A stretch of DNA of 64,000 bases, from NCBI GenBank assembly GCA_000010565.1, contig AP009389.1:2232001-2296000 (forward strand). Reading direction: 5' to 3'. Positions 41,904-51,044 of the stretch are shown here, piece by piece. The notes under the pieces are model-generated. The model ran no database searches, had not been told where the DNA came from, and was given only the letters and a program-made list of their open reading frames with translations. Each line of letters begins with the position of its first letter. Within the stretch, counting starts at the first letter, position 1. Source of the DNA: Pelotomaculum thermopropionicum SI (lineage in GTDB: Bacteria; Bacillota; Desulfotomaculia; Desulfotomaculales; Pelotomaculaceae). A program made the position numbers and the translations under genes.

Positions 41904-42683
41904 TTAAATTCCGATAAAGTGCTGGGTAAACATGGCCCCGTATGGCCCACCCCGGACGATACCGATCCCGATATGAGTATAATTCGGGTTCAGAATGTTT
42001 TCCCTGTGTCCGGGGGAATTCATAAGGGCCTCGTGTGCCCTTTCGACAGTCTGGTTCCCGGCGAGGTTTTCCCCGGCGTAGCGGTAAGTCACACCTTGGG
42101 CCTTCATTAAGTCCCACGGAGTAACGCCGGAAGGCGAAGTGTGGGCAAAGTAATTTTTGTCAACCATATCCTGTGATTTCGCCCGTGCAGACTTGACTAA
42201 ACGCTCGTCAACGACAAGCGGCTTTAAGCCGGCCTTTACCCGTTCCTGGTTCACAAGGTCGACCATTTTTTGTTCGTCAGCGGTCAGGATCGGGGAAGGG
42301 GTTGGAGCCGGTGCCGGTGAAGGGGACGGTTGGGGTGTCGGTTGTGGAGCCGGTGTCGGAGCGGGCTCAGGTTGTGGCTGTGGTTTTGGTGCCGGTTCCG
42401 GTGCCGGGGTTGGTTGCGGTTGGGGTTGTGGTGCCGGTGCTGGAGCCGGGGCTGGTTCCGGCAGCTGGCCTTTGTAGATTACGTTATAACCCTTGGCCTT
42501 CAGGTACTCGTAGATTCTATAATTGGTTGTGTAGAAGGTAATCTTGTAAACTTTAGCTCTATATACAAAAATCGTCGGTTTTCCTTGGGAAGCTGTGGCG
42601 GCTTCGGCTTTCCGGGCCAGCATCATGTAACCGCCCAACAGCAGGGCCAGGGCCAACAGCACGGCAGTTATTTTCTTCGTCAT
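41904..42683 (-). CDS. Secreted CAP-domain protein (YkwD-like)
   Basis: 259 residues from ATG 42683 (AAAGGTGG 7 bases upstream). It has a signal peptide (about 1-29, ending AEA) and a small N-terminal domain (about 35-70). A Pro-Ala-Gln-rich linker follows (about 75-135, built from PAP/PQP repeats), then a CAP/SCP domain (about 137-259) with ALMNSPGHRENILNPNYTHIGIG. CAP proteins of this kind occur in spores and cell walls; their activity is not settled. It is the last late gene and may alter the host surface. Confidence 0.87.
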   Translation of the reverse strand: MTKKITAVLLALALLLGGYMMLARKAEAATASQGKPTIFVYRAKVYKITFYTTNYRIYEYLKAKGYNVIYKGQLPEPAPAPAPAPQPQPQPTPAPEPAPKPQPQPEPAPTPAPQPTPQPSPSPAPAPTPSPILTADEQKMVDLVNQERVKAGLKPLVVDERLVKSARAKSQDMVDKNYFAHTSPSGVTPWDLMKAQGVTYRYAGENLAGNQTVERAHEALMNSPGHRENILNPNYTHIGIGIVRGGPYGAMFTQHFIGI

Positions 42684-42699
42684 CCGTCTGCCACCTTTC

Positions 42700-42735
42700 A
42701 AAAAGAATTACCCGCCAGTTGGTTAGACCGACGGG
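42700..42735 (-). terminator. Terminator between holin and CAP gene
   Basis: Minus strand CCCGTCGGT/ACTGGCGGG (9 pairs counting wobbles) with a 7-base loop, then TAATTCTTTTT. It would make CAP expression depend on read-through. Confidence 0.65.
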
Positions 42736-43056: not shown

Positions 43057-43185
43057 TTATCGATCAAGCAAGCCGAGCCGGTCCAGCAGCACCAAAGTGC
43101 GGTAAAAAGCCGTGTCCCCCAGGGGTTCGTTTATATAGCCTTTGTTATAGACTTTCAGAACAGCCGCTTTAGCCCAGTCAGGCAC
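43057..43185 (-). pseudogene. Displaced C-terminal part of the amidase gene
   Basis: The frame from GTG 43185 encodes VPDWAKAAVLKVYNKGYINEP... (42 residues), a type of C-terminal segment found in phage amidases. It overlaps the 3' end of the amidase in the -1 frame. A one-base change near 43195-43205 would join the two as ...EPQADPLAAVPDW. I see no standard slippery heptamer there. It could be a frameshift mutation, a sequence error, or an independently translated wall-binding piece. Confidence 0.55.
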
Positions 43186-43829
43186 GGCGGCCAGGGGATC
43201 GGCCTGGCTTGGGGTTCCACTTTAGTGATTTTGATTTTGTCGCCTACGGAAAGGCGGTCTGGGTCTTTTAACCGGGGGTTGGCCAGAACAATTTCCTCCA
43301 TAGTCAATTCAAAGCGTCCCGCTATCGCGGCAAGGGTGTCCCCTTCCTTTACAGTGTAGGTGCCTTGAATGGTTTCGATGAACTCAGCCCAGCGGGGGAT
43401 AATCCGGTGGGGGCAGTATTTGCCGCTCCAGTAACGGTGTTGCACCACGTTTTCAACAGGTATTTTAAATTCAGCCATAAGGTGCCGGATAAGCAAGACG
43501 GCGTTGGCCTCAGCCTTCCTGTAGTCGCCGTCTTCGTTCTCGCATATTTCAATACCTATGGAAGTGGTGTTCCCAGGGCCGTCGGCCCCGTCGTCGGCGT
43601 GGTAGGCGTTTTCGCCGGCCGGGATGTGCTGGATGATTTCCTTGTCGTCGACGGTAAAATGCCACCCGGTCGAACCGGACTTCCCGGCCTTTAGAAATTC
43701 CGCGTGGCCCCTGGCGTTGGCCCCCTTGTTGGTGTTGCCGGTATTGTGCACGGTTATAAACTTGGGTTCCATCTTCCGGCCAGGGCGTGCCCGTAAGTTG
43801 CCGGGTATAAAGCCCTGAATTATCTTCAT
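43155..43829 (-). CDS. N-acetylmuramoyl-L-alanine amidase endolysin with LysM
   Basis: 224 residues. The Amidase_2 domain (about 20-150) has zinc-ligand regions FITVHNTGN, ENAYHADD and HRYWSGKYCPHRI. A LysM motif follows (about 155-200, GTYTVKEGDTLAAIAGRF). It cuts the bond between MurNAc and the peptide stem to lyse the host. The last 25 residues (RPIPWPPCLTGLKRLF) look frame-shifted. The start overlaps the holin-like BhlA gene. Confidence 0.9.
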   Translation of the reverse strand: MKIIQGFIPGNLRARPGRKMEPKFITVHNTGNTNKGANARGHAEFLKAGKSGSTGWHFTVDDKEIIQHIPAGENAYHADDGADGPGNTTSIGIEICENEDGDYRKAEANAVLLIRHLMAEFKIPVENVVQHRYWSGKYCPHRIIPRWAEFIETIQGTYTVKEGDTLAAIAGRFELTMEEIVLANPRLKDPDRLSVGDKIKITKVEPQARPIPWPPCLTGLKRLF

Positions 43830-44451: not shown

Positions 44452-47400
44452 TTAACTGTAAACCACTTTAATCTTGAAGCCAGGTTCAAATTTCGCGTAG
44501 TTGGAACGGCCTTCGGAATACAAAGCGAAGCCTTTGGCGTTGCCTTCTAATATGGCCTGTATTGTCCAGGTGGGTATTTCTTCCCACTTGGCCTCGCTCC
44601 AGGCAAATTCCCTTTCGCCTTCCACGGGGTAAATTACCCGTGGCGGACCGGGCGGCAGCGTGGCGGGGGTGTAGTTGTGCATAGCCAGGTGCAGGGGTTC
44701 CGGGGTGGGCACGCCGCCCTCGGCCCTCCGGGCGGCATAAATATAAGCGGCCTTCAAAGTCTTACCGCTTAACGTGGCCTTGAGGTTGGTGAGGTCTGCG
44801 TCGTTAAAAAACAGGAAAGTCGTATAGTTGCCCCAGTCTTTGAATTCGCCTTGCACCGCCGCACCGCCGGTGTCGATCCCGGAATAGGCGGTATATTCGT
44901 TGTAGACTGCGATGTTCTTGACTTCCCATACGCTGGTGTCGGGCGGGGCGGGCTGTGCCGCCGGGGTCCCGGGGTCAAAGGTCAGGGTGCCCAGGATTTC
45001 CCCGTCGGCTTCCGATAAAGTGTCGGCGGTCGTCCCGTTCGGTGCCACGTCCCTGCCGGCCACGGTGGAAGGCCCAATACATTTAATACCGTAAGGGGAT
45101 TCTCCGTAGTTGGAGCCGTACAGGTGGACTAAGGCCCCGTGGGTCGCCACTATACTCGCGTCTATACCGCCGTACAGCTTGTTGTAGTAACAGTCCACGA
45201 CGCTGCCCTCGGCGTGGACACAGGCTCCCACTTCGCTGTTGGAATACACGTCCATGTGGCCCACTTCCACGCGGTTGGAGGAAAAAACCTGAATGGAGCC
45301 GTCGGGGAAGTCGTTTTCAAAGTAGGGTGTGGGCTGGTTTATCTTGCCTTTCAGGATTTTAATGGCTTTCTGTAAATTGGCCCTTACAGTAATGTAGCCG
45401 TGGACCGTGCTCCCCATAAAGTCGATGTCGATGTTCCCGGCCCCGTAAAACCCTTCGATAAGGATTTCGTTTTCATATATTAGGCTGTTGTCGGCTAGGA
45501 TTATTTGGACATCTCCGTAATTGAATTTAGGGATGGAATTAACCGCCTTCTGTACGGTCTTGAAGGCTTGTTCCGGGGTCACGCCGGGGTTGGAGTCCTT
45601 GCCGGTAGCGGGGTTGACGTAGTATTTTAAAGTTTCGTGGCTGAAGTTAAAAACATTGCCCTTCAGCTTCCCCACGTAAAGCTCTTTGAAGCCTCCCACG
45701 CGGCTGTCCAGGTCGGCAATGACTTCGCCGCTGCCGTTTAATACCTGCAGCCGCCCGAACCCGTTGTCGGCCCCGCCCAGGGTCAGGGTGCCGCCTTTGG
45801 CACGGTCGAAAAATAAATAGCCAGTTTTTATCAGGTCAGCAGAAAAGCCGTCGCCGGTGCCGAAGGTCGTCCAAAGCCATTCCCCGGTTACAGGGTCTTT
45901 GCTGTTGGCTATGGCGAAGATACCGCCCAGGAGCCGGAGGGCCTTCGTCGGATTAATCTCCCGGTCTGTTATCAGAATACCCTGGTCGCTGGTCAGCTTG
46001 ACGGTGCCGTTACCGGCCCTCACCTGTGCCCGGAGGGTGTCCAGCACACCGTCCACGGCCCCGATCTTGCCGTCCCAGTAGGGTTCTTTTTCTTCTACTT
46101 TCTTTTCTACCTGTTCCAGCCGGGCCAGGGTGTTTGTTACCTTGGGGATGAAGTTACCGAGCTTGATTTCAGCCTTTTCCGGCTCGTCCAGGTAACGCCG
46201 TATTTCGATGACGCGGGCCTCGACGGCCAGCGGGGGGTTAAATTCCCGGTCTATCGCGGTCACGGTGTCGCCCAGCCGCACTTTCTCGCTGCTGTAGCCG
46301 GCGGTCTGTTCCAGGTCCACAACGTCCATTTGGAACTCTACCAGCGGCACTTTAGCCTTTTGGAGTGCGTCCCAGGTCTTTTGTAAAAGGGTTACCGGGT
46401 CGGTTTCTTCCTGGTCTTCAAAAATGCCCGTCCGGTGCCTGAAGGTCCTGTCCCCGTTGGGCCGCCCGTAAGCTGTTAGGGCGTCCGGGTCGCCCACCCA
46501 TTCCTGCCCGGCCGGTTTGTCAGCCGGGTCGCCGCCGGCTTTGCTCCATACCACGTCCGCAAACGTAGTCCTGCGGCCGTAGCCGTCATCGGTTTCCTCA
46601 CCTTTGCCCCGCCCGTAAAGGGCCGTCTTTATACTGGTGGAGTCCACTTTACGGGTGACTTTCTTCATGTCCCTGGTATATTCAAAACGCCTTCCTGTTT
46701 CGTGGCCCCGGCGTGCCAGGAGGTCGACGTACCGTCCCACGATCTTGCCGCCGGCCAGCTTCACGCGGTAGCGGACTTCGCACTTCCATACTTCCAGCAT
46801 TTTGTGAATGGCCGACAAAACACTTTGGTAATAGAAAGTAGTGGAACAGGTGCCCAGGCTGTTGACGACACCGGCCTGCCAGCGGGTGGCCGCCAGGATG
46901 TCTTCCAGCACTTCCCTGGCCATTTTGTTTTCCGGCCTTTTGTCGGTTATAATTTCGTCTGCCAGTTCGAAGGCCGCGTGTTCACAGTAGGCCCTTTTAT
47001 ACGTCACCTCGTCGTGGATTTCCTCCACTTCTTTAATTACAAATAACTGGTAGAAGTCTTCGTCCAGGTCTTTTATCGCCACCAGGTTTTCTTCCGTGAT
47101 ATATTGGGCGTCTTCGTGTCCGGCCGGTACGCTGAGTTCCAGGCTGTTCTCGCCGTTCAGCTGTTCTAAGTGTACCGCGTTGAAGTAGGGGCAAGCCTTG
47201 GGGCTCCCGTTGATAAGCACCGCCTGTACCACTTCGGACTTGTTAAAAATAAAAATAGGCCGGTCCGGGTCGTGTTGCTCGTCCCGGCTTTGTATGTCTG
47301 TCACAAATTTATCCCAGCGGGGGAGGAGGAGTCCTGGCCGGTTGGAGCCGTCCCAGTATTGCAGGGGCACGACGTTTGAAACAGGTATGGCGTAAAGGGC

Positions 47401-47817
47401 CATGAGGTAACGGATAAGCCATGTCGCGTTTTCCTCTGCCTTGGAACGGTTGCCGGTTCGGCAAATAGTTATAGATATAGTGGCGAGGTTGCCTGGGTCA
47501 CTGGTCGATCCGGTGACGAATAGGGACATTTCATCGGTGGGCAAATGCTGTATGATGATTTTATCGTCAACAGTATAGTGCCAGCTATTTGTTCCCGCTA
47601 AGTCTGTGTTTAAATACGAGCCATAATATTCAGCGGTGGCAGTGGACGCGGTGTTGCCGTCGTTGACGGTTATATGAGTCGGGTTAATGAAAAGCCCCGG
47701 CCTGTTGGGCCTTCCCGTGCTTATATAATTACTGGTTATTTCAGGTATTTCCCCCACCTCCACTTCAAAAAGAAATGGCGTCCCCGCGAAGGAAGACGCC
47801 GTTTTGTCTATAGCCAT
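44452..47817 (-). CDS. Tail fibre/endopeptidase-like protein with dead amidase domain
   Basis: 1121 residues. Residues about 25-180 are clearly related to the phage's own amidase (WHYTVDDKIIIQHLP matches WHFTVDDKEIIQHIP) but its metal-binding residues are gone: HNTGN is NDGN, and KYCPHR is SNRPGL. Residues about 190-560 form a Gp37/Prophage_tail-like hub domain. A coiled coil (about 555-575) follows, then a parallel beta-helix-like segment starting KYYVNPATGKDSNPG (about 720-900) and a C-terminal binding module. It would contact the host surface. Its ATG overlaps the Dit-like gene stop by 10 bases. Confidence 0.83.
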   Translation of the reverse strand: MAIDKTASSFAGTPFLFEVEVGEIPEITSNYISTGRPNRPGLFINPTHITVNDGNTASTATAEYYGSYLNTDLAGTNSWHYTVDDKIIIQHLPTDEMSLFVTGSTSDPGNLATISITICRTGNRSKAEENATWLIRYLMALYAIPVSNVVPLQYWDGSNRPGLLLPRWDKFVTDIQSRDEQHDPDRPIFIFNKSEVVQAVLINGSPKACPYFNAVHLEQLNGENSLELSVPAGHEDAQYITEENLVAIKDLDEDFYQLFVIKEVEEIHDEVTYKRAYCEHAAFELADEIITDKRPENKMAREVLEDILAATRWQAGVVNSLGTCSTTFYYQSVLSAIHKMLEVWKCEVRYRVKLAGGKIVGRYVDLLARRGHETGRRFEYTRDMKKVTRKVDSTSIKTALYGRGKGEETDDGYGRRTTFADVVWSKAGGDPADKPAGQEWVGDPDALTAYGRPNGDRTFRHRTGIFEDQEETDPVTLLQKTWDALQKAKVPLVEFQMDVVDLEQTAGYSSEKVRLGDTVTAIDREFNPPLAVEARVIEIRRYLDEPEKAEIKLGNFIPKVTNTLARLEQVEKKVEEKEPYWDGKIGAVDGVLDTLRAQVRAGNGTVKLTSDQGILITDREINPTKALRLLGGIFAIANSKDPVTGEWLWTTFGTGDGFSADLIKTGYLFFDRAKGGTLTLGGADNGFGRLQVLNGSGEVIADLDSRVGGFKELYVGKLKGNVFNFSHETLKYYVNPATGKDSNPGVTPEQAFKTVQKAVNSIPKFNYGDVQIILADNSLIYENEILIEGFYGAGNIDIDFMGSTVHGYITVRANLQKAIKILKGKINQPTPYFENDFPDGSIQVFSSNRVEVGHMDVYSNSEVGACVHAEGSVVDCYYNKLYGGIDASIVATHGALVHLYGSNYGESPYGIKCIGPSTVAGRDVAPNGTTADTLSEADGEILGTLTFDPGTPAAQPAPPDTSVWEVKNIAVYNEYTAYSGIDTGGAAVQGEFKDWGNYTTFLFFNDADLTNLKATLSGKTLKAAYIYAARRAEGGVPTPEPLHLAMHNYTPATLPPGPPRVIYPVEGEREFAWSEAKWEEIPTWTIQAILEGNAKGFALYSEGRSNYAKFEPGFKIKVVYS

Positions 47818-50800
47818 TTTTCGTTAAACTGCACGGTTACGTCCGCCTTGTTTGCCGGTTCCAGGGTGAACTCGTTCAGCCCTTTGTCCAGCATAAAGAA
47901 GTCGCTGCTCACGTCCAGGTATCGCATGGCCCGGAGTCCATTCACCTTTATCGTCGCCCTGTCGTTGTCGATTACAAGCACGTCGCCCTGTTTAAAGTTA
48001 TAAGTGACTAATACTTGCTTGGTGCCCTTCATCACCTTGATGTACGGACAGGGGGCTTTGAATTCCACGGTAAAGACCGGGTAGGTCCTGGCCGTCCCGT
48101 TGTAGGTGAGGGCAGGGGTCCCGCCGGCGTTCGTCACTTCCAGGTCGTTGTTGAATTCCAGCTTGCAGGACGTGCTGGCGTCCACCGGGAGCGGCGTCCC
48201 GGCCTGTACTTGGGCCAGGAGGTCGGCGTCCGGACGGGCCACGGTGGAAGTCCTTACTTCGTCGATGAGGTTGTTCCAGTGCTTCTCGTTGCTGTAGCGG
48301 CTCCCGATATAGACTTTTTCGATCTTGGACATATCCACGGGGGAGGCCAATGTCGCCGATCCCACCACCACGCCGTCAATTAAAAGCCATACAGAACTCC
48401 CGTTCCAGCGTGCGGAATAGACGTGCCAGCCAACAGCGGCGATACTGGAAGTCTTAATAGCCATCGTGTTGTTAAAATACAGCACGTAGGTAGAGTCGGT
48501 CAGCTTTTCCAGCAGGAAACGGCTCCCCATATCGGTGCCGTAGCTGTCCCACAGGAAGGCGTAACGGTTAACCGTACCGTCTTCGTAGGCCCTCACGTCG
48601 AAGGTGCCCTGGGCACTTTCCAGGCCTCCGGCCATGTCCAGGGTAAGGGTCTCAGGCTGCCTGGTGCCGTCGGTGAACGAAGTTCTATAAATTTTTTCTT
48701 CCAGCTGCCACTTCATTACGTTGGCCGGGGTCAGGGTTATTTTGCTTGCCGCCGGTTTCACCAGGGCCGCCGGAGCGGTCTGCCGGGCCGCTACTTTTAC
48801 GGTCAGGCTGTGTAACACCGGCGGGTTAGGCCCGGTAACGGTATGGAGGGTTTGCCGTACATAAAGGGTCTTACCGGAAAGGTCCACGCCGCTGGTCAGC
48901 CCGGAGACGGAGCCGCCGTTGGTGGCCGCCGTCCAGTTGGTCCCGTCCAGGCTTGTCTCGACGGTCAGCGAAGCCCCGGCCGGTACGGTCGCCGTCCAGC
49001 TTATTTTGGAAGAATAACAGGTGCCGATGCCGGTTAACGTCCAGATGGGCCATGTGCGGTTTCCGCTGTTCGCCTTGTCCACGGTAACAGTAATGTCCAG
49101 TAACTTGGGCGAGGTCTTTTGGTCTGCAGTCGGGGTCAGGGTCACGCGGTATTTAACTTTGGCACTGCCGCCTAACACCGTACCGTTGGACAGGCCGGGG
49201 ATCGCCCCGCCGTTGGCGACGGCACTCCAGGCCCCCCAGGTGGTGCCGTCGGCAGAAAAGCTAGTTTCCACGGTAACGCCGGTCCCCGCCGGCTTATTTT
49301 CCGTCCAGCTAATGGTTGAGCCTAAAACGGTAAAGGCCCCCAGGGCCATCGCCGGGGAGACGATGTTGCCGGACGAATTGTAAATATCCAAAGAGTTCAC
49401 GGTTATGGTAAGGCTGTTCAGCTTCGGGGTCTGCGATTGGTTGGTGGTGTTCAACGTCACCTTCCAGTACAGGGTCTTCCCGCTCATGTCCATACCGGCG
49501 GTAATGCCGGGGACCGGGCCGCCGTTGGTGACTTCGGTATAGTTGGTTCCGTCCAGGCTGGTTTCCACTCTAAGGGTGGTGCTGGCCGACGGTAAGGTTT
49601 CCTCCCAGGAAACGGAGCTTGATTCAGCCGTAACGACGGAGGCGAGGCTGGCCGAGTTTACCCTGTTGCCGCTGGTCAGGTAACGGGTAATGGTTTCATC
49701 CCGTTTATATTCAAATACCAAATAGTCTATATAAGCCTTGTAGTTGGAATTGCCTTTTAATGTGATGGTGTACGAGTTCCCCGCTGTCAGGTTGATAGTG
49801 TGTATATACCATCCTGGCGAAGCGGATGCCGATAAGTTCAAGCTGCCGTCCAGGTAGACGTAAAAAGAGTTCTGCGTGACTTGATAAGAAAAGCTAACAT
49901 AGGCGTTATAACCCCCCGGAGGCACGGTGACGGTGAAAGAAACTTCACTGGTGCCCGAGTAGTTGGTAAAGGAATACTGCCCTTCCCAGGGGAGGGAGGT
50001 AGTCCTTACCCAGCCCCCGTTTACGTGGGTGTAGGAAAATTCGTGGTTGGCGTCCTCGAAGTCGTCCCTTGTGGTGTAGGTGTTCGTCTGGTTCACAGTT
50101 TCGGTCGCCAGTTCCAGGTCGCCCCCGGCCGTCGCCACCACTTGAGTCAACGTGCCTGCCTGGAAGTCTGCCTGGGTGGTCTCCGTCCTGGTGAAAGTCG
50201 TGCCGGAGGGGACTTTGGTCAACTCCACCTCACCGGCGGCGGTGGCCTGTACGTTGGTCAGCGTGCCGGCCAGGAAGTCGGCCTGGGTGGTGTCGGTGTC
50301 CGAAAAGCCGGGGGTGAGGGCCAGCTTCAGGTCGGTTACGTCGGCGTAGACGCCGGTCAGCGTCCCGGTGCTGAAGTCGTCGTCCTTTACGTGGTCGATC
50401 ACAGTGGCAGGAGAAGGGCCGTACTGGGAAAGGGTGTAGCTGCCGCCCACAGCCAGCCCTGTCACCGTTTCCGTGGCCGGGGCCGCCGCCGTGGTCAAGA
50501 TGTTGGTCGTCCCTTCTTCCATTTTAATAGCCTGGCCATGTTGCCCGGTCTGGAAGCGGGGCTGGCCGGTCGCGTAGGCGTCCAGGTCGTCGTCGTAGGC
50601 GGTCGAAGCCCTGGCGAAAGTGGGCGTAGGTTTGGCCGTGGCTATTACCTGGCTCACAAGCCGGCCGGTGGCCAGCGGGTCGGGGCAAAGGAAAGAGAGG
50701 ACGCCCTGTCCGTTGAACACGATTTCCTCGATTTCGGTGTCCCCGGCGATCCGGGCATAGTAAGCCTTGTCCGGTTCGTCGTCGAACACCAGCGGCTTTA

Positions 50801-51044
50801 AGTCGTCCTGGTAAAGCCAGTCGGCGATGTCCCGTGCCTTCCGGCGTAGTTGTTCATAAGAACCGGCTTTTATGGTAACGGTGACGTCGATCTGCCGCAC
50901 GCCCAATTCCACGCCGAAGTCTATCGCCCCGGCCCTTTTCGGCACTGCCACAGTCTTAGAAGAAACGGGCGGCAGGATACTCTGCCGCACCGCGTTAACA
51001 GTTAAATAAAGGTCGCTGGGTATGCCGTTAAAGGTAAAGCCCAT
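47808..51044 (-). CDS. Distal tail (Dit-like) protein with long repeat insert
   Basis: 1078 residues. The N-terminal 130 residues are Dit-like (VAVPKRAGAIDFGVELGVRQIDVTVTI). Then come two copies of an ADFxAGTLT-type unit (about 245-300) and a carbohydrate-binding-like domain (about 320-430). Three repeats with the pattern VETSLDGTNxT...NGG...GKTLY (about 470-760) and a LamG-like domain (about 800-960) follow, and the Dit C-terminus ends the protein. The family is usually 250-500 residues; the extra domains suggest glycan binding at the tail tip. Confidence 0.8.
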   Translation of the reverse strand: MGFTFNGIPSDLYLTVNAVRQSILPPVSSKTVAVPKRAGAIDFGVELGVRQIDVTVTIKAGSYEQLRRKARDIADWLYQDDLKPLVFDDEPDKAYYARIAGDTEIEEIVFNGQGVLSFLCPDPLATGRLVSQVIATAKPTPTFARASTAYDDDLDAYATGQPRFQTGQHGQAIKMEEGTTNILTTAAAPATETVTGLAVGGSYTLSQYGPSPATVIDHVKDDDFSTGTLTGVYADVTDLKLALTPGFSDTDTTQADFLAGTLTNVQATAAGEVELTKVPSGTTFTRTETTQADFQAGTLTQVVATAGGDLELATETVNQTNTYTTRDDFEDANHEFSYTHVNGGWVRTTSLPWEGQYSFTNYSGTSEVSFTVTVPPGGYNAYVSFSYQVTQNSFYVYLDGSLNLSASASPGWYIHTINLTAGNSYTITLKGNSNYKAYIDYLVFEYKRDETITRYLTSGNRVNSASLASVVTAESSSVSWEETLPSASTTLRVETSLDGTNYTEVTNGGPVPGITAGMDMSGKTLYWKVTLNTTNQSQTPKLNSLTITVNSLDIYNSSGNIVSPAMALGAFTVLGSTISWTENKPAGTGVTVETSFSADGTTWGAWSAVANGGAIPGLSNGTVLGGSAKVKYRVTLTPTADQKTSPKLLDITVTVDKANSGNRTWPIWTLTGIGTCYSSKISWTATVPAGASLTVETSLDGTNWTAATNGGSVSGLTSGVDLSGKTLYVRQTLHTVTGPNPPVLHSLTVKVAARQTAPAALVKPAASKITLTPANVMKWQLEEKIYRTSFTDGTRQPETLTLDMAGGLESAQGTFDVRAYEDGTVNRYAFLWDSYGTDMGSRFLLEKLTDSTYVLYFNNTMAIKTSSIAAVGWHVYSARWNGSSVWLLIDGVVVGSATLASPVDMSKIEKVYIGSRYSNEKHWNNLIDEVRTSTVARPDADLLAQVQAGTPLPVDASTSCKLEFNNDLEVTNAGGTPALTYNGTARTYPVFTVEFKAPCPYIKVMKGTKQVLVTYNFKQGDVLVIDNDRATIKVNGLRAMRYLDVSSDFFMLDKGLNEFTLEPANKADVTVQFNEKWL

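Follow-up and report, generated by a model that had tools for sequence, protein, structure and literature searches.

A degenerate amidase domain at the N terminus of a prophage Tal protein, a candidate non-cutting wall-binding module of the tail tip

To recognize the cell wall, phage tail tips usually rely on carbohydrate-binding modules or active hydrolases. The locus analysed here raises the question of what an amidase domain with a replaced active site is doing at the N terminus of a phage tail protein. It lies in a 64,000-nucleotide stretch (the window) of the genome of Pelotomaculum thermopropionicum SI, a single contig of 3,025,375 bases, and belongs to a siphophage-type prophage. Our analysis points to the capture of a lysis enzyme and its reuse, without cutting activity, in the infection machinery: an enzyme that belongs to lysis seems to have been transferred to the opposite end of the phage life cycle and deprived of its chemistry.

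The prophage genes are read on the minus strand in the order tape measure, Dit, Tal, a small ORF, a BhlA-type holin and the endolysin (Table 1). The protein that carries the amidase-like domain had been described as a tail fibre in the original prediction, which was made from the DNA sequence alone. By its sequence features, however, it is a Tal-type tail-tip protein and not a side tail fibre, as it contains the Tal core domains PF18994 and PF06605 and is encoded directly downstream of Dit. Pfam recognized no C-terminal hydrolase in it. Tal is a trimer, and the amidase-like domain, which we denote TalN, would presumably be present in three copies at the tail tip. TalN joins the gp27-like Tal core right at its D1 domain; in known phages, this core and Dit together form a hub (PMC7291167). 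Beyond the endolysin, a further minus-strand gene (41904–42701) encodes a protein with a signal-like N terminus, a repetitive linker rich in Pro, Ala and Gln, and an apparent CAP/SCP-type C-terminal domain.

Table 1 Coordinates of the features of the Tal locus, numbered from the first base of the window
Feature	Position	Strand	Basis or remark
Evolved Dit, 1,078 aa, upstream neighbour of Tal	47808-51044	minus	Pfam: Sipho_tail and SPP1_Dit, large insert with Laminin_G_3
Tal ORF, 1,121 aa	44452-47817	minus	The N-terminal ~180 residues are the subject of this report
Nominal N terminus, Tal residues 1-25	47743-47817	minus	pLDDT <50 for residues 1-21; hairpin inside; Met of the homologues aligns with residue 24
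Terminator-like hairpin between the dit and tal frames	47777-47800	minus	Kept in both homologues, where it is intergenic
ATA codon where the homologues have ATG, possible rare start	47746-47748	minus	Alignment; 8 nt after GGAGG
Degenerate Amidase_2 domain (TalN), Tal residues 26-177	47287-47742	minus	Pfam, identity to endolysin, AF2 and Foldseek
Asn52 for zinc ligand His (PlyL H29)	47662-47664	minus	Alignment with 197 amidases; His in both fused homologues
Asn110, retained (PlyL N83; AmiE N112 equivalent by position, peptide-stem anchor)	47488-47490	minus	197/197 other amidases, 3/3 fused proteins; role from PMC2837410
Thr117 for catalytic Glu (PlyL E90)	47467-47469	minus	Alignment; Thr in all three fused proteins
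Leu152 for second zinc ligand His (PlyL H129)	47362-47364	minus	Alignment; His in both fused homologues
Ser158 for catalytic Lys (PlyL K135)	47344-47346	minus	Alignment; Ala in both fused homologues
Arg160 for zinc ligand Cys (PlyL C137)	47338-47340	minus	Alignment; Cys in both fused homologues
Prophage_tailD1 (PF18994), Tal residues 189-280	46978-47253	minus	Pfam
Prophage_tail (PF06605), gp27-like Tal core, residues 283-566	46120-46971	minus	Pfam; sequence match to phage NF5 Tal 9m7n, E 2.8e-29
Tal C-terminal extension	44455-46110	minus	No Pfam match; PHROG tail protein phrog_21973 over residues 663-1120
Phage endolysin P0002, intact Amidase_2 and LysM	43155-43829	minus	Pfam

The original prediction had placed a match to the phage's own endolysin at residues 25–180 of this ORF; both the frame and the span are correct, with slightly narrower limits (residues 26–177) describing the domain best. 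Aligning the two domains, one of the checks proposed with it, gave a full-length alignment of TalN with the endolysin P0002 at a BLOSUM62 score of 302, far above 500 shuffled controls (mean 30.5, s.d. 4.9, maximum 51). The two are 43% identical (E = 2.5e-33 in a search of the phage's host genome), and the endolysin is the sole other match to TalN in that genome. TalN also scores 28.9 bits against Pfam Amidase_2 (PF01510), above the curated cut-off of 26, and matches PHROG amidase families (phrog_3088, E = 2e-23); the closest solved structure by sequence is the endolysin XlyA (E = 4e-30).

Modelling the structure, the other proposed check, predicted the α/β fold of peptidoglycan recognition proteins (PGRPs) and amidases. 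The AF2 model has a pLDDT of about 90–97 over most of residues 31–170, with a dip to 59 in the block 101–110; its input alignment comprised the window protein, endolysin domains and Tals, and it thus shows that the sequence fits the fold in a test that depends on homology. A Foldseek search with this model ranked XlyA (3hmb) first (TMt 0.89, rmsd 2.0). It also returned camel PGRP-S and the complex of a zinc-site LytA mutant (PDB 5ctv), the latter not being used as support. Past residue 280 the model is poor (pLDDT mostly <50), and no placement of domains in the trimer was drawn from it. Chance similarity is ruled out by the alignment score when set against the shuffle maximum. Taken more broadly, an explanation by chance or by a different fold has next to no probability: on its side are only the degenerate motifs and a single-sequence prediction that was uninformative (pLDDT 44), and against it, besides the score, stand the alignment-based model at pLDDT >90 and its similarity to XlyA.

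Whether TalN could still cut peptidoglycan can be read from its active site. The zinc site of Amidase_2 enzymes is His/His/Cys (PMC10167349), and in PlyL the proposed roles are proton shuttle for E90 and stabilizer of the transition state for K135 (PMC2837410). Among 197 other Amidase_2 domains, these residues are conserved in 196 (H29), 196 (E90), 196 (H129), 194 (K135) and 195 (C137), whereas the window Tal has N, T, L, S and R, respectively. The original prediction had held the zinc-binding His/Cys/His residues to be replaced and the domain to be catalytically dead, and both statements stand: H29 has become N and C137 R, the second His (H129) has become L by a change of NVVQH to NVVPL, and to the loss of all three zinc ligands are added the replacements of E90 by T and of K135 by S, which had escaped notice. 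With five catalytic or zinc-binding positions replaced, the window TalN cannot hydrolyse peptidoglycan by the known mechanism, a conclusion drawn from its residues and firmer than the one argued before.

Two full-length homologues carry the same fusion. One, in the genome G097 (L110), is 58% identical to the window Tal over residues 11–1113; the other is in the genome G104 (L133/L223; IMG/VR L271). The host genomes of both prophages belong to the same order as that of the window but to another family. In both homologues TalN has Thr in place of E90 and Ala in place of K135, with the zinc triad His/His/Cys intact, and their Amidase_2 Pfam scores, 47.5 and 50.1 bits, are higher than that of the window protein.

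No further fusion turned up in the collections searched. The known fused proteins are these three sequences, from 3 of the 113 genomes of the order (a class-level search comprised the same 113 genomes), and a search of 398 genomes from across the phylum gave no fused homologue outside the order. In IMG/VR, 81 related Tal ORFs at 80 loci included no amidase fusion except the window's own, and the fusions seen in that collection are those of the window's prophage and of the G104 homologue only; in 50,697 GenBank phages there was no fusion covering 80% of the query. One apparent fused protein, L104 (match 32–610), was rejected as two separate genes, Tal and endolysin. At the 80 IMG/VR loci, the nearest Tals without TalN begin at or near D1, with only the window's own carrying an amidase upstream of it; same-order Tals at 47–54% identity likewise lack TalN, and the nearest Tals without it adjoin similar Dits.

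The surroundings of the two homologues were compared with the window as well. Their Dits are of the same size as the window's, with the insert 45–63% conserved as against 70–76% at the Dit ends. Both homologous prophages have an extra gene near tal and holin (L128:4984-5733 and L223:1985-2746 (minus)), which in G097 encodes two LysM domains and a Hydrolase_2 domain (a SleB-like cell wall hydrolase); the extra gene has no counterpart in the window between tal and the endolysin gene. An ORF at L128 2809–3540 is similar in size to the window gene at 41904–42701, corresponds to it in position and also encodes a signal-like N terminus. Separately, L201, L203, L216 and similar IMG/VR loci contain phage ORFs of ~460–570 aa in which Amidase_2 follows an N-terminal region of ~250–360 aa that resembles phrog_18955, a family listed as of unknown function.

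Phylogenetic analysis bears on the origin of TalN. The TalN domains of the three proteins group as a single clade (100/100) on a long stem (0.95); its neighbours (86/84) are clostridial endolysins, those of the same phages among them, and the order within the clade mirrors that of the phages' endolysins. TalN had been proposed to be a duplicated lysin. A recent duplicate of this phage's own endolysin is rejected, as a tree joining the window TalN and the window endolysin in one clade has a p-AU of 0.0008; an older duplication, with TalN arising in the ancestor that the three phages share and being sister to their endolysins, is not rejected (p-AU 0.449). The data suggest a single old event, in which the ancestor of this phage group would have gained a Tal fused once at its N terminus to the catalytic domain of a clostridial-phage endolysin; duplication within the lineage and capture from a clostridial-phage relative both fit the tree as sources. 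Because the G097 and G104 proteins share the loss of Glu and Lys yet keep the zinc triad, loss of catalysis probably preceded that of the zinc site, the latter being confined to the window lineage. Shared residues place the replacement of Glu and Lys in the ancestor of all three, and parsimony on the tree assigns that of the zinc ligands to the window phage alone. The relatives thus preserve an intermediate, with zinc kept and catalysis lost, and the order of loss is directly testable on three natural proteins.

Loss of catalysis has not been followed by free decay. The dN/dS of TalN is about 0.19 between the window and G097 and 0.15 between G097 and G104, compared with 0.20 and 0.16 for the endolysin catalytic domain; dS is near saturation between the window and its homologues, which makes these values rough and the G097–G104 pair the more reliable. 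Rough as they are, they indicate purifying selection on TalN as strong as that on the active endolysin domain. The tree shows no acceleration of the window branch despite the loss of zinc ligands. The homologues are 57–62% identical to the window protein in TalN, 68–74% in D1 and 43–48% in the Tal C terminus.

What is conserved within TalN is unevenly distributed. A set of 49 thinned, nearer endolysin domains has 57 conserved positions, of which the three TalN sequences keep 39–41, mostly in the hydrophobic core, and also Asn110. The lost positions cluster round the active site (the HNT loop, H65, the WHAGDG loop, G115, E117 and K158). The HNT loop is altered in all three fused proteins, and in the WHAGDG loop H100 has become F, H or N and G104 has become S, S or A. 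Such remodelling of the cleft is as expected after loss of catalysis, and binding of the original substrate cannot be assumed from the sequence.

What, then, might TalN do at the tail tip? The original prediction took it for a peptidoglycan-binding module, which is plausible. The most likely single reading is that it binds the cell wall, to which we assign a probability of roughly 0.45. TalN would be a folded, selected, non-hydrolytic module, likely giving low-affinity binding to cell-wall peptidoglycan or a neighbouring wall glycan, and together with the evolved Dit it would hold the tail tip to the wall without cutting, much as non-catalytic PGRPs use this fold to bind peptidoglycan. We favour wall binding because inactive AmiE mutants still bind muramyl tripeptide and non-lytic PGRPs lack zinc ligands yet bind peptidoglycan (PMC2837410), and because all three fused proteins keep the Asn equivalent to AmiE N112, a residue in contact with the peptide stem whether or not the family member is active (PMC2837410). 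Speaking against it are the remodelled substrate cleft, including both loops, G115, E117 and K158, and a level of conservation of TalN that fits a structural role equally well. That role is the serious rival, second after wall binding: the dead domain may have been exapted as a baseplate block or adaptor with no wall ligand, for example by packing against the outside of the Dit ring, by holding the Tal trimer in place or by giving another tail protein a docking site. The cleft is remodelled in all three proteins with the hydrophobic core kept, conservation of TalN is closer to that of the Tal core than to that of the fast-evolving C terminus, and the fusion point lies directly at D1 of a core that forms a hub with Dit in known phages (PMC7291167), all as a structural block would have it. 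Retention of the peptide-stem Asn in three of three argues the other way, as does the fact that the nearest TalN-less Tals stand beside similar Dits, which implies that the domain is not generally needed for assembly.

The complete zinc triad of the two homologues would also be superfluous in a purely structural part, except for stability. Together with their higher Pfam scores, this triad is what could make TalN a weak or altered enzyme, one that cuts slowly or by other chemistry in the zinc-bearing homologues and is dead in the window copy alone. We regard this as unlikely, as both homologues lack the Glu and the Lys that are conserved in 196 and 194 of the 197 amidases and proposed to act as proton shuttle and transition-state stabilizer in PlyL (PMC2837410). 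Still less probable is that TalN is a remnant without function, left by an accidental fusion and decaying in a prophage that is itself defective. The lost zinc site and the ATA in place of the homologues' ATG could be cited for this reading; a dN/dS of about 0.15–0.2, equal to that of the active endolysin domain, a frame open across two bacterial families and the absence of branch acceleration largely refute it for the group. If wall binding is correct, TalN may be taken further as a phage counterpart of the non-catalytic PGRPs: after fusion to Tal, an endolysin domain would have lost first Glu and Lys and then zinc, and become a peptidoglycan-reading module of the tail tip. It would represent a new class of 'evolved Tal' decoration, with relatives that keep the intermediate. 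We hold this fuller proposal somewhat more tentatively than wall binding as such.

Comparison with known systems places TalN between several of them. The XlyA (3HMB) and PlyL (1YB0) endolysins resemble it in fold, length and core residues, with about 42–45% identity to XlyA and 29–35% to PlyL. Unlike them, TalN lacks the catalytic Glu and Lys, and in the window copy the zinc ligands; it has no LysM or other wall-binding domain and sits at the N terminus of Tal, not in a lysis gene. The Tal of phage 80alpha reportedly has a C-terminal peptidoglycan hydrolase domain, as suggested by structure prediction. Tals with such C-terminal hydrolases, such as that of NF5 (9m7n, named from the PDB title), share the PF06605 core with the window protein, but their extra domains are C-terminal, whereas the amidase-like domain here is N-terminal and inactive. 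Evolved Dits and Tals with carbohydrate-binding modules are already known and, as here, bear an extra, probably wall-directed domain on a siphophage Dit–Tal core; in the known evolved Tals these modules lie within the gp27-like domain, or C-terminal extensions carry lysins or carbohydrate-binding modules, in contrast to an N-terminal dead amidase (PMC7291167). Non-catalytic PGRPs (PGRP-S, PGRP-SA and PGRP-Iα C) share with TalN the superfamily fold, the lost zinc ligands and the retained stem-binding Asn (PMC2837410), and TalN offers a bacterial-virus parallel to them. The losses are independent, however; those PGRPs are animal immune proteins with demonstrated binding, and the likeness of TalN to them drawn here is one of fold, lost zinc ligands and retained Asn. 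Mosaic domain combinations that link endolysins with tail proteins are a known general phenomenon (PMC10684548), as are evolved Tals. What appears new is an inactive amidase at the N terminus of Tal, which we did not find in the papers and sequence collections searched, the lack of a description in the open-access literature being weak evidence of absence.

The start of the window tal gene also differs from that of its relatives. The last bases of dit, which ends at 47808, overlap the nominal tal ATG (47817), and the next ~23 codons read through the terminator-like hairpin. In the homologues, translation starts after the GGGGGTGG element, at an ATG aligned with the window ATA, which itself lies behind a good ribosome-binding site. 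Because of this read-through, and because the homologues start downstream of the hairpin, the annotated first ~23 residues of Tal are probably not translated as such and would be an untranslated leader or a low-value extension. As judged from the alignment, the window tal would start either at the ATA or by reinitiation at the overlapping ATG.
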